Shown here one piece after another: positions 16,462 to 23,732 of a DNA stretch of 62,664 nucleotides. The notes under the pieces were generated by a model. The model was not told where the DNA came from, ran no database searches, and was given only the letters and a program-made list of their open reading frames with translations. Source of the DNA: a virus; the IMG/VR virus record IMGVR_UViG_3300018719_000038, positions 1 through 62,664 of that record; one strand, 5' to 3'. The translations under genes and the position numbers were made by a program. The first letter of the stretch is position 1; each line of letters opens with the position of its first letter.

Positions 16462-17235
16462 TTATGCCGCGATGAGTTCCGGCGTTGTTACGCATTCCGG
16501 AATCGTGCGACGAATTCGTTCTATCATATCGATACAGGCGTGCGACCTGCGGTTACGGTCGTAGTATCCGTGAACATAGTTTGCGAAAACCTCAAACTTA
16601 CGGTCTAATCGCAATGATCGCGGCGTGTCCGCGTACATAAAAAAGCACCAACGCAAAGCGTCGGCGTTCGATTTAGTGGTAAGAGTATACATCGGACTTT
16701 TACGACCCGACTTACCGGCACGGTGTTCCTTCAACGTCGTGTTGATGCCTCTCTTTTGGAACTCCACTTGCATGTCCTCAAAGAAACTTTTTGTTGCGCC
16801 ACAGATTAAAAGTTGAAGATCGTTCCACTGTTTCCCGTGTTTTATATTTCCGTCTCCCTCGAAAACTCCGCGAGTGAAGTCCCAAAACAGCGACTCCGGA
16901 ATATTTGGAACGGTCGTATTGAATGTCTTATTACTTCTTGCCATTCCGCATGCAAACAAGTCTTCTGCCATTTCCTTACGGCACACTCGTAAATACGCAA
17001 AGTGCCTACCGTCATCTTGTGTCCCTTTAAATACAGGACCGGTAAACCGCATGGCCCTCTTGATCTTTTCAAGCGCGTCGATATCGTGGGATTTAAGCAT
17101 AAGACGAATCTGCCCACTCTTTTCATTTACGGAACCGTCAGTGAGCAACCACCCAAACACCCACGCGCTTTCCCTAGTCCATGTCTTAAAAAAGTCTTCA
17201 TTGACACTGTGAACTTTCCTAACTAAATCGCCCAA
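16462..17235 (-). CDS. LAGLIDADG homing endonuclease (free-standing)
   Basis: Protein of 257 residues with two LAGLIDADG-type motifs: FGWLLTDGS (27-35) and GVFEGDGNI (123-131), each with the acidic residue that binds the metal. Two motifs in one chain indicate a monomeric enzyme that cuts a long asymmetric site. Start is TTG with AAGGGG 9 nt upstream. It lies outside the group I intron, about 100 bp downstream of exon 2 of the minor capsid gene, with a terminator between. It may spread the intron or itself. The 89 bp after its stop hold only small inverted repeats before the scaffold gene. Confidence 0.88.
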   Translation of the reverse strand: MGDLVRKVHSVNEDFFKTWTRESAWVFGWLLTDGSVNEKSGQIRLMLKSHDIDALEKIKRAMRFTGPVFKGTQDDGRHFAYLRVCRKEMAEDLFACGMARSNKTFNTTVPNIPESLFWDFTRGVFEGDGNIKHGKQWNDLQLLICGATKSFFEDMQVEFQKRGINTTLKEHRAGKSGRKSPMYTLTTKSNADALRWCFFMYADTPRSLRLDRKFEVFANYVHGYYDRNRRSHACIDMIERIRRTIPECVTTPELIAA

Positions 17236-17324
17236 TTAACCAAACCCCTTAAAGTTCGATTCCTTGAGAAGATGCCGCGCAGGGCGCCAAGGTCGCGCCT
17301 TTTCGGTGATCAGCCTATCGCGGC

Positions 17325-17351
17325 CAAAATAAAAACGCCTCAATCGGCGTC
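17325..17351 (-). terminator. Terminator overlapping the minor capsid stop
   Basis: Stem ACGCC/GGCGT with a 6-nt loop containing the TGA stop, followed by TTTTATTTT on the minus strand. It separates exon 2 from the endonuclease gene. Confidence 0.72.
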
Positions 17352-18386
17352 TAAAAGTTTTGGATCACGTATTGGAGAAATTACGTGGCGACAATTTGGC
17401 CCACGCTGTTATCTCCGGTTTCCCGGAGTGTCGGACTATCCCATAACCTCGAAAGGCTCCGCTATTATAGTCTCTGCACGTCCCTGTCTCTTTGGGATTG
17501 CGATGTACGCGGACAGGTTTCGCTCACGGTTGCCGTAGCGCAAATACGCCGTAGGGTTCCCTGAATTTAAGCGGTTATTCGATGCGAGTCACCTCGCAAA
17601 GCCACCCGTTTGTCGATGGAATATTTCTCGGCGCGGCAAATCACCGAAATACGGATAATCGCCCGGGGCATCGCGTACCAATTTGACGATGCGTCCTTCC
17701 CAGTTTCGGCAGGCGTCCGTAGCTCCGTGGCGCGATATCCGACCGTAATAAGCGCGCCGACCAATAGCTTCGTTTACCGTCGCTTCCCGGTGTGACTCCG
17801 CCATCTTCGTCCGCGTAACCATTTCTACGTAGACTTCCGGCTTCCAACGTCGGCCGGCCGCGTCAATAATTCCGGTATTTACGGAGTCGCCGAGCTTTTT
17901 CCGTAATCCGGCGAGGATATCCGCGCTAATCGTCCGTCGGCCGTTCACGCCTTTCGTAAGATTGGCGCGCATGGATTCCGCGGTTACTTGCCGGACCACC
18001 GTCCGGACGCGCCGCTCTATGTTTTTGGTGACCGCCAGCAAATCCGCTTGAGTATCCGCTACGGCCGCCGCGACGAGTTCCCGGTTGATCTTCGTAAATT
18101 TGACGAGCTTTTCCGCGTCCTTAACGTCCAGCGACACAAGCGCAGTCAGCACACCATCGCGGACAGCCTGCGGAATGTTCTTCGCGACCCAGGCCGCCGA
18201 CTCTTCGTCAAGTGATGCGAGTATTTTCGTTACCTCAATGAGTGCGGCCGCCGAGTTTGCCCGGGACATGTTCGCGATGTCAATGCGGTCGAGTTCGGCA
18301 AGGATCACAGCAATTGCCTTTTTATACGCGCGGACCAGGCGGCCGATTTCATAATCGTAATTAGGTTCCGGGATTTTAGCGGGCAT
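17340..18386 (-). CDS. Minor capsid / head morphogenesis protein, split by a group I intron
   Basis: Exon 1 is 17616-18386 and exon 2 is 17340-17399, giving 276 residues after splicing. Exon 1 ends GDYPYFGDLPRREIFH, and the unspliced frame would end in a foreign HRQTGGFAR. Exon 2 begins PNCRHVISPI, which completes the HPNCRH motif at the end of this Mu F/minor capsid family. The N-terminal part is helical. The protein is expected inside the head near the portal, which is encoded just upstream after a small gene. Both exon boundaries fall between codons. The exon 2 reading frame, not the ORF end at 17589, defines the gene. Confidence 0.9.
17400..17615 (-). ncRNA. ORF-less group I intron, 216 nt
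   Basis: Self-splicing intron judged from base pairing. 5' splice site follows a U (TTCCAT|C) that pairs with an internal guide GGGTGG (P1, with the U-G wobble). P2 is GCGAG-GTGA-CTCGC. The P7 strands are GACTA (in GTGCAGAGACTA) and TAGTC (in GGGATAGTCCGAC), the classic R and S elements. P8 is AGCCT-TTCG-AGGTT and P9 is CTCCGG-GAAA-CCGGAG. The last base is G (AGCGTGG|CCA). CAGGGAACCCTACGG and CGGCAACCGTGAGCG supply the P and Q regions. No ORF fits inside. Confidence 0.92.
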
Positions 18387-20297: not shown

Positions 20298-22052
20298 TTA
20301 CGCCCATGCGGGCTTGTTACGGACTTTCTTTTTCGCTTTCGCGACGTTCTCGACCGCGAGCTGCAGGGCGTCCGCGGAGTCGACATAATCGCCGTGCGGA
20401 TACTGCACAAGTTGGTCGATGAGCATCGTGTGCCCAGCGTTAAGAATTAGGGTTTTGTTATGAAAAAGAGGCTCTAACGACTCAATCCGCTCCTCTTTCG
20501 AGGATTTGTAGGACTTGATATCGTTGAGCCTCGTTTTATAGATACCTTCGACGCGCATTCTCTCTTGGAGCTGCCGATAGAACTCGTGCTGCGCGTTAAT
20601 TGTCTCGACGCTGAATACGTGGTGCTTCCACTCTTTCATACGCTCGATAATGATATCGAGGTATTTGTGCGGAGGTTCTTTCGACGCGTATTCGTCCAGA
20701 ACGAAGATGTGTCCGGTCTTTTCATAGCGACCGACCGTCAGTACCGCGTTATAACAGCTCCGCGCATTCTTCCCTTGCGCTATATCCCACGCGCCTGAAA
20801 TCGTCAACTCATCGACCGGAATGAGCAAATCTTCGTACCGAATATAACGCCGGCTGCCCTCGTACTCGAACCGGTAATAGCCGTATGTGTCCGGGAAGAA
20901 AAACTGCTCATCCTCGGAAAACGCCAGATTCCGGAACTCCGAATTATATGCTCGCGTGCCCATATTGACTTTTTCGTGCATGAGCGCTCGGTACGTCCAG
21001 CGCCACGGCCACGCCAGCTCGACGCCAGCTTCCAGCGCCTCTTTATTCGCCTCATAAAACGCGTCGGCCTCCGTCGGATCGTCTGACCTCGCGTAAATTT
21101 CGCAATATCGGTCCCAAAGTTGCGGATTGTCCGGCTCCGAAACTACCGCGCCATGGAAGGAAGATTCGAAGTCCCTACGTTTGAGAACGTGATTCAAAAG
21201 GCCGGTCGCGCTAACCATCGTGCCGACAAGGATTATCGCGGTGGCCTTCGTTCCAATCGGAACTACGACCGAGTTAAACCAGTGAATCAACTTTTCCCGC
21301 GCTTCCTTCGTGCCTTCGTTATTTTGCGAAGACGGATCGTCGACAATTACGAGGTCCGGCCGATATGAGCCGTGCCGTTTACCGCGCAGTTGTTTACCGG
21401 AGGACGAGGCCTCGACCAGCGTTCCGGACGCGGTGATAAACGCTTCTTCGTTATCCTTTTCGTTCAGGTTGTTCCGTTCGTGGAGCAGCGGGCCGAAATC
21501 CTGGCGCAGCTTTTCGTTGAATTTAAGCTGCTTGTTCACCCAGCCGATCAGCTTTTTCGAAAGCGTGTCTGTTTCCGAAATCACAAGGATGTATCGCCGT
21601 TTCCGGAATACGACTTGATGAAGCGGAAAACCGTTCGAAAACATGCCGGACTTCGAGTGTCCCCGGGCGGCCGCAATCGCAAGCCGCGCATTTCTCACGA
21701 CATGGTCGACGTGATCGCACAAGTCGAAGAACTCGCGGTGGATCGGCGCTAAATGGTCGAAATTATCGTGCGGCGTTCCGTCCTCGCCGTGCCGTATGAT
21801 ATTATCCTCGTTTTCCGGATTGCCGGCGTCCGACAGGTATTCGTAAGTGAAATAGGCGACGTCGTTCTCCGCGCGGTCGATTCGTTTTAAACGCCGAATC
21901 TCCGCAATATCAGTCCGGAACGCCTCTTCGTGATACGTCGTCGCGCGGCCCGATTCGATAAGGGACCGCAGCTTTTTAGCGCGAGCACTAACGAGCTTGA
22001 TGCGTTCTTGCCGCGCCGGCTTATCGAGCCATTCATCGTTAACCCATGCGAT
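20298..22052 (-). CDS. terL: Terminase large subunit, probable ATC start
   Basis: 584 residues. Walker A AARGHSKS (about 128-135), Walker B LVIVDDPSS and an RNase H-like nuclease domain (ISGAWDIAQG; FVLDEYA) identify the packaging motor. The first canonical start (TTG at 21722) would remove the first 110 residues, including the normal N-terminal adenine-binding region. The frame is open to the TerS stop, and the only start-like codon near the strong site AAGGAGGT is ATC at 22052 (9 nt), giving MAWVNDEWLDKPARQERIKL. The ATG in between is out of frame. Confidence 0.9.
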   Translation of the reverse strand: MAWVNDEWLDKPARQERIKLVSARAKKLRSLIESGRATTYHEEAFRTDIAEIRRLKRIDRAENDVAYFTYEYLSDAGNPENEDNIIRHGEDGTPHDNFDHLAPIHREFFDLCDHVDHVVRNARLAIAAARGHSKSGMFSNGFPLHQVVFRKRRYILVISETDTLSKKLIGWVNKQLKFNEKLRQDFGPLLHERNNLNEKDNEEAFITASGTLVEASSSGKQLRGKRHGSYRPDLVIVDDPSSQNNEGTKEAREKLIHWFNSVVVPIGTKATAIILVGTMVSATGLLNHVLKRRDFESSFHGAVVSEPDNPQLWDRYCEIYARSDDPTEADAFYEANKEALEAGVELAWPWRWTYRALMHEKVNMGTRAYNSEFRNLAFSEDEQFFFPDTYGYYRFEYEGSRRYIRYEDLLIPVDELTISGAWDIAQGKNARSCYNAVLTVGRYEKTGHIFVLDEYASKEPPHKYLDIIIERMKEWKHHVFSVETINAQHEFYRQLQERMRVEGIYKTRLNDIKSYKSSKEERIESLEPLFHNKTLILNAGHTMLIDQLVQYPHGDYVDSADALQLAVENVAKAKKKVRNKPAWA

Positions 22053-22624: not shown

Positions 22625-23263
22625 TTATGCGGCGAGCTGCCGCGGTATGTCGGCAAGCAGCGCGAGTAGCCGGTCTCGCTCCGCTTGGAATGCGATTTCG
22701 AATGCGTGTGACTGTTCGAGTAATTGCGTGATGTCTGCCGTAGACTTGCCGGACCGTTGCGCCATTTCCGCGACGACGGCGTCGAAACGTTCCTGCGTGA
22801 AGGCCGGAGTGCGTTCGCGGAAAGAGATGAGCGAGTTAGTTTCCTTTGATGAGTTGCAACTGATGCACACTTTCGTAAGATTCCAGCGTGAGTTTGGTCC
22901 GCCCTGCTTCATCGGGATAATGTGATCGATATGTATTGCTCGCTTTGGTGGATTATCCCCGTGATCCTTTCCGCAATAGGCGCATACATTTGGCATGCTG
23001 TAAATGTCGAGCGCATCTTCCGGCGTTAAGTCCGAGAATGCTCCGTCCTTCTTGGCTTGATAACGCGATGTTGTATAGAACGCCATATGCGGATTCTCTT
23101 CGCGATACTTACGGACACGGGCGCGATGTTTACCGGGATTCCTTTCGCGATTTCTTCGACATGCTGCCCGTCCTTTTTCGAGACACACTTCGCATGTTTT
23201 AAGACCATCCCGGATCGTTACTTCCGTAGATGGCTTCGAACAGGTTCCGCAAAGTTTAACGAT
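22625..23263 (-). CDS. HNH endonuclease upstream of terminase, probable ATC start
   Basis: About 212 residues. An N-terminal CxxC pair set (LCGTC ... CEVC) is followed by an HNH domain: CAYCGKDH, AIHIDHIIPMKQGG and NLTKVCISCNSSKE. HNH proteins next to terminase often help cleave DNA during packaging (HK97 gp74-like); a free-standing homing role is the alternative. GTG at 23350 has no ribosome site. GGGGAGG lies 8 nt before an ATC at 23263, giving MVKLCGTCSKPSTEVT, a usual start for such proteins. Confidence 0.85.
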   Translation of the reverse strand: MVKLCGTCSKPSTEVTIRDGLKTCEVCLEKGRAACRRNRERNPGKHRARVRKYREENPHMAFYTTSRYQAKKDGAFSDLTPEDALDIYSMPNVCAYCGKDHGDNPPKRAIHIDHIIPMKQGGPNSRWNLTKVCISCNSSKETNSLISFRERTPAFTQERFDAVVAEMAQRSGKSTADITQLLEQSHAFEIAFQAERDRLLALLADIPRQLAA

Positions 23264-23732
23264 GATAACCGCCTCCCCGAGTTTAAAAAATTGTGCGCAA
23301 ATTCCGAACAACTGTCGCGGCCCGTTGAGCATACCCCTTGGGGGTCTCACACTTTATCACATTAACGCGACCTACATCTGCACAAAAGTCAACTTTTGGT
23401 CACTAGTCCAACTCCGCGCCACTCCGTCATAAATCGCATAACCACGCGGCTTCCCGGCGTTTCACCCTCCGTCGGTCATCCGCCCGATCCCCGCAAATTT
23501 GCACTTTTGCGTATATTTCCCGGCGAAATTGCGGCCTGAACCGCAAAAACCCCGTGAGTTTTCGGAGGGCGTCCGGCCCGAGCCGCCAGTCCGTGAACGG
23601 CCCCACTCCGTAAACAAACGGAACCATCCGCGCATCAAATCGCTTCATTATATGCGCAAGCAAACCGCAACCATTTCGCAAGGTTTACATCGCGCTTGTC
23701 CTGCGCCCGAGCAAAACGCAGGAGCTGCGCCA
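23264..23732. other. Intergenic region with no certain gene
   Basis: About 470 bp between the HNH gene and a small gene. An open frame on the minus strand (23427-23681) lacks a ribosome site and looks spurious. A short palindrome AAAAGTCAACTTTT is visible near 23382. The region may hold control or packaging signals. Confidence 0.4.

Follow-up and report, generated by a model that had tools for sequence, protein, structure and literature searches.

A small group I intron in a phage minor capsid gene and the free-standing LAGLIDADG endonuclease gene beside it

A group I intron has been described in the capsid gene of the lactococcal phage Tuc2009, and the capsid intron of phage LittleE, for which splicing was demonstrated by RT-PCR, is probably of the same group (PMC3706429). 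In the process known as collaborative homing, a free-standing endonuclease acts on the site at which an intron inserts, and the intron in turn protects its carrier (PMC6083498, PMC3984707, PMC10448857). The viral locus analyzed here, part of a stretch of 62,664 nt (the window), brings together an ORF-less group I intron of 216 nt in a minor capsid gene and a free-standing LAGLIDADG endonuclease gene downstream (Table 1). Overall, we find it best explained, with good probability, by a spliced group I intron that would be spread in trans by this endonuclease. The original prediction, made from the window alone, was right about the intron, but it overlooked the LAGLIDADG gene, its RNA leader and the scattered occurrence of the intron among relatives, which together constitute the most interesting aspect of the locus. 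Its view that introns are rare in head genes requires qualification: the capsid introns of Tuc2009 and LittleE (PMC3706429) make them less so, but our search of open-access full texts found no report of an intron in a head-morphogenesis or minor capsid (Phage_min_cap2) gene, nor of one in any Paenibacillus phage.

Table 1. Positions of the features of the locus and of int-alpA-type RNAs in other sequences.
Feature	Sequence	Position	Strand	Details
LAGLIDADG homing endonuclease gene, free-standing	window	16462..17235	-	257 aa, TTG start, Shine-Dalgarno AAGGGG
int-alpA-like structured RNA (RF02996)	window	17261..17325	-	leader of the endonuclease gene
Intrinsic terminator	window	17333..17352	-	terminator scan; overlaps the capsid stop codon
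Minor capsid gene, exon 2	window	17340..17399	-	PNCRHVISPIRDPKLLDAD and stop TGA; spliced translation, relatives continuous here
ORF-less group I intron, 216 nt	window	17400..17615	-	RF00028, covariation, exact absence in relatives; omega-G at 17400
P9 hairpin, GAAA loop	window	17413..17428	-	compensatory change in 5/6 pairs
P7	window	17434..17472	-	GACTA 17472-17468 / TAGTC 17438-17434; P3 3' strand and P8 between; invariant
P2, GTGA loop	window	17583..17598	-	compensatory change in 6/6 pairs
P1	window	17602..17619	-	exon CCAU (17619-17616) / guide GUGG (17605-17602); U.G at 5' splice site
Minor capsid gene, exon 1	window	17616..18386	-	257 codons, ATG to CAT; PF06152 Phage_min_cap2, phrog_4611 minor head protein
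int-alpA-type RNA	L027	2281-2345	-	
int-alpA-type RNA	L081	2912-2976		
int-alpA-type RNA	L083	2913-2975		
int-alpA-type RNA	L225	about 1438-1375	-	
int-alpA-type RNA	L223	1501-1568		
int-alpA-type RNA	L235 and L224	1501-1569	-	

Host gene and intron structure

The interrupted gene is surrounded by genes for a portal, a scaffold and an SU10-type major capsid protein. Left unspliced, its frame meets a stop 8 codons inside the intron and yields 265 aa, whereas removal of the 216 nt gives a protein of 276 aa that ends in FHPNCRHVISPIRDPKLLDAD and matches both PF06152 (Pfam, 1.8e-11) and phrog_4611 (PHROG, 2.1e-53). The minor capsid identity of the host gene, the boundaries at 17400-17615 and the restoration of HPNCRH, all of them part of the original prediction, are thus upheld by profile matches, spliced translation and intron-less relatives. 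The nearest intron-less relative is a gene in a Fontibacillus phaseoli prophage (L013/L199, 87% aa identity). The minor capsid protein of this prophage (L013 3001-4190) bears a C-terminal extension of about 120 residues that the window protein lacks and that may be a DUF6883-like domain. The last codons of the minor capsid gene and its stop also form a terminator-like hairpin midway through the head operon, as they do in several intron-less relatives. Chance alone predicts as many hits of the terminator scan in that stretch, and a similar hairpin with a T run can be recognized by eye in L051, L083 and L225.

The Rfam search proposed along with the original prediction returns a match to RF00028 over the full model (1-253 of 253), with 46.9 bits and an E-value of 8.2e-11 on 601 nt (8.5e-9 over the whole window), and this excludes a chance match. 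Since the score lies under the curated gathering cut-off of 50 bits, a default Rfam scan is silent on the intron, and genome annotation hence truncates these capsid proteins. Introns found at the same site in relatives score between 49.5 and 58.2 bits, three of them above the cut-off (L027, 58.2; L029, 57.4; L046, 53.0). Every predicted element of the fold is present, namely the U-G pair of P1, the GTGA loop of P2, the GACTA/TAGTC strands of P7, P8, the GAAA loop of P9 and the terminal G, and a P10 is possible between the GG beside the P1 guide and the CC of exon 2. The in-frame stop of the unspliced RNA (TGA, 17591-17589) sits in the GTGA tetraloop of P2; the TGA of this tetraloop is the first in-frame stop in 5 of the 7 introns known at the site, and the remaining two reach a stop before it. 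In the introns of T4, splicing is known to suffer when ribosomes translate into the core. Subgroup IA, which comprises many phage introns, is defined by P7.1/P7.2 elements between the 5' strand of P7 and the 3' strand of P3. Only 4 nt (TAAT) separate these strands in all seven introns, and the absence of P7.1/P7.2 places the intron outside this subgroup. When the intron is folded by itself, its minimum free energy does not stand out from that of shuffled sequences (z -1.3); the comparative test described below does set it apart.

Introns at the same site and their intron-less counterparts

Six further introns, of 190-215 nt, occupy the identical site in other phages and prophages (L051/L074, 213 nt; L027, 190 nt; L055/L034, 191 nt; L029, 211 nt; L046/L053, 212 nt; L225, 215 nt). 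They were identified by a pattern search for the P7 region together with tblastn or, in the case of L225, by an intron-model search of 300 Paenibacillaceae genomes. The existence of relatives of 190 and 191 nt runs against the earlier suggestion that 216 nt is close to the lower size limit. The terminal G and the U.G splice pair are kept and P1 is unchanged in all seven introns, and the spliced frames invariably restore HP[NKR]C[RK]H (computed, but read by eye from the sequence for L225). The canonical P1-P10 structure was drawn by hand on the seven-row alignment, giving 53 pairs and 367 pair cells. Standard pairs fill 98.1% of these cells, as opposed to 33-39% in controls with slid partners, and none of 500 shuffles performs as well. 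Compensatory changes occur in 21 of the 53 pairs (4 of 6 in P8); P1, P7 and P10 are invariant and therefore neither support nor weaken the drawn structure. Together with the full-model match (E 8.2e-11), covariation over the seven introns substantiates the prediction of an ORF-less group I intron. The codons TTC CAT, the synonymous choice that P1 requires, are present in all 7 intron-bearing genes, as against 9 of 31 intron-less genes with CCAT (Fisher p = 9e-4).

The original prediction had named relatives failing to join exactly between CAT and CCA as grounds for its own refutation. The 31 distinct insert-free relatives, which come from viral contigs, named phages and Paenibacillaceae prophages, all join precisely at this point, between FH and P. 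Named phages matching across the whole capsid gene carry the insert in no case, and a search of named phages for close relatives of the intron yielded just short stretches, such as one in the DNA-polymerase locus of phiTE. In a maximum-likelihood phylogeny of 38 capsid proteins, the intron does not form a cluster and needs seven changes, at least four of which are forced by well-supported branches. Between phages, the introns are 70-90% identical, compared to 57-66% at the nucleotide level for exon 1 and 33-45% at third codon positions; L055 is left out of the exon values because the stretch extracted for it contains an upstream stop that makes its identities artefactual. Part of the likeness among introns is structural constraint. 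The contrast between the window and L051, with 89.6% identity in the intron and 35.6% at third positions, points to a recent transfer. The 14 bases of exon 2 directly past the intron (TGTCGCCACGTAAT) are identical in the window, L051 and L225, as co-conversion would leave them.

Two weaker matches to the intron model were also noted in Paenibacillaceae genomes, one in an apparent tape-measure gene (L226, G135:C3:18526-18762) and one in a gene whose intron seems to enclose an HNH-like ORF (L227, G168:C1:5702740-5702998).

The downstream endonuclease gene and its RNA leader

The endonuclease gene begins some 165 nt downstream of the intron, behind the terminator and the int-alpA-like RNA. Its product matches PF14528 (36.4 bits, cut-off 22.5) and phrog_4645, and displays the motifs VFGWLLTDGS and FTRGVFEGDG, with D33 and D128 unchanged across six homologues. 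The AlphaFold model has a low pLDDT of 52 and is counted as weak support only, its top Foldseek matches being PI-SceI and I-DmoI at a TM of about 0.25. Homologues sit at the same place in the intron-bearing L051 (81% identity), L029 (54%) and L225 (39%), and also in L083 (79%), where the intron is absent. In L027 an unrelated gene of HNH/EndoVII type holds that place (phrog_1035, 6e-26), and L055 and L046 have the intron with no endonuclease gene directly downstream, which counts against homing in trans. Across distinct loci with downstream sequence, such a gene follows 5 of 7 intron-bearing alleles and 1 of 29 intron-less ones (p = 3e-4, or 3e-3 for LAGLIDADG genes only), with p-values that ignore kinship among loci that are few and not independent. 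Among 300 Paenibacillaceae genomes, a single genome has a same-site intron, and this genome alone encodes a close homologue of the endonuclease. The capsid motif of L083 reads HPCCAH, with an A that none of the other relatives listed has at that position; a single case, and hence weak evidence, this change would fit the needs of a genome that carries the enzyme unprotected. The endonuclease genes of intron-bearing phages share 40-82% aa identity and are no more alike than their hosts; these identities, and the unrelated gene of L027, imply that intron and endonuclease have not always moved as one unit. Intron-only, gene-only and swapped-gene loci all occur besides the combination of intron and gene.

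The int-alpA-like RNA scores 33.4 bits in the window against a cut-off of 35.8 (RF02996, E 4.2e-5), and is found at the same place in L027 (43.1 bits, above the cut-off), L081, L083 and, by sequence, L225. Elements of this type were observed directly upstream of homing-type nuclease genes of the LAGLIDADG, HNH/EndoVII and GIY-YIG families. The idea that the element is specific to endonucleases was ruled out by L234 and L236, where genes of other kinds follow it. In the second hairpin of the element, the loop is complementary to a stretch on the 3' side, just before the Shine-Dalgarno sequence, and the two change in a matching manner (CCTTGG/TCAAGG, CCTTGA/TCAAGG, CCTTGG/CCAAGG, CCATCCC/GGGATGG, TCCGAAA/TTTCGGA). 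This pattern suggests a pseudoknot, which may control translation.

Elsewhere in the window, an HNH/EndoVII-type gene (22625-23350, minus strand) lies upstream of the small terminase gene and encodes a product 62% identical over 210 aa to that of a gene in the intron-bearing contig L074. This gene and the LAGLIDADG gene bracket the terminase, portal and minor capsid genes in the manner of a homing-gene island. A second intron was suspected in the large terminase gene (20298-22052, minus strand) because the ORF list begins that gene late. The candidate was rejected, given that the frame extends upstream without a stop as far as an ATC (22052-22050) after GGAGGT and that Rfam detects no other intron in the window. 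Since no ATG, GTG or TTG fits the full N-terminus, the terminase seems to start with this ATC.

Splicing, homing and related systems

Comparison of sequences establishes an exact insertion with a covarying core, U.G and omega-G splice signals and six relatives at the same site, and the intron is a genuine group I intron at a new site, and is probably active. Transcribed late along with the head operon, it would fold and use guanosine for a cut after CAT, which would then be joined to CCA to produce the full 276-aa protein, while a stop codon, mostly that of the P2 tetraloop, would bar ribosomes from the core. The endonuclease would cut alleles lacking the intron, at the HPNCRH codons or close by. 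Repair with the donor as template would copy the intron along with exon 2, the RNA leader and the endonuclease gene, the intron shielding the donor's own site from the enzyme.

That the intron splices we consider highly likely. The chances that the insert is no intron at all, being instead an assembly error or a random insertion with structure by chance, are negligible: we found no point in support of this reading, and seven phages or prophages from different data sets share a homologous insert at precisely this position, which refutes it. A dead relic, in which splicing has been lost and the phage or prophage makes the truncated 265-aa protein, is very improbable. The window copy does score slightly below the Rfam cut-off, and the window may be a prophage or a fragment, but the core helices are all intact with compensatory variation, the P1 codons are retained at synonymous sites, exon 2 is in frame in seven phages and the residues that would be lost are those of the invariant HPNCRH motif.

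Present or recent homing in trans by this endonuclease is less secure, although we lean towards it. In the main competing account, the intron splices but the endonuclease is an independent homing gene with another target (intronless homing), and the intron owes its spread to ordinary recombination or to rare events of reverse splicing. The two same-site introns without the gene, and L083 with the gene and no intron, would fit such independence, as would the second, HNH, gene before the terminase genes and the fact that head-gene regions attract homing genes anyway (PMC10448857). We nonetheless judge this account unlikely, in view of the association of intron and downstream endonuclease (p = 3e-4), the scan of 300 genomes and the finding of an altered presumed target in the intron-less carrier only. 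Building on the preferred reading of a spliced intron spread in trans, we tentatively put forward, as a possibility short of an even chance, that the same capsid intron is served by exchangeable partners, LAGLIDADG in some phages and an unrelated HNH/EndoVII-type enzyme in another, both at the same spot and behind the same pseudoknotted int-alpA-type leader that would control the timing of the enzyme. Loci with a swapped or missing gene, or without the intron, are also compatible with endonuclease genes coming and going around an intron that stays in place.

A single site in one family of Paenibacillaceae phages hence presents intron with LAGLIDADG, intron with HNH, intron alone, LAGLIDADG alone and neither, a natural series that bears on the assembly and loss of composite mobile introns (PMC3984707, PMC10448857). 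The question is directly testable in culturable hosts such as Fontibacillus and Paenibacillus.

In architecture, the intron resembles that of the Azoarcus tRNA-Ile gene, a small, minimal group I intron of about 200 nt, in having GNRA loops on P2 and P9 and no P5abc or P7.1/7.2, but its host is a protein-coding phage gene. With the capsid and tail introns of the mycobacteriophages LittleE and BAKA and of Tuc2009 it shares a location in virion structural genes, albeit in other genes and at other sites, and the LittleE capsid intron has its own endonuclease ORF and measures about 820 nt (PMC3706429). The T3/T7-like phages and the terminase locus of ICP1 likewise combine an intron and a free-standing endonuclease beside an essential phage gene, though the host genes differ and the endonucleases belong to other families (T5orf172 in ICP1) (PMC3984707, PMC10448857). 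The psbA intron of cyanophage S-PM2 and its endonuclease F-CphI offer a parallel in several respects: a group I intron without an ORF that lies in a run of conserved codons, a free-standing endonuclease gene adjoining the intron-bearing gene and intron-less alleles in relatives (PMC6083498). They differ in that F-CphI is EndoVII/HNH-like rather than LAGLIDADG, in that the host gene is psbA rather than a minor capsid gene, and in that cleavage is here a prediction. The locus thus stands as a well-supported new example of a selfish element of an already known kind.
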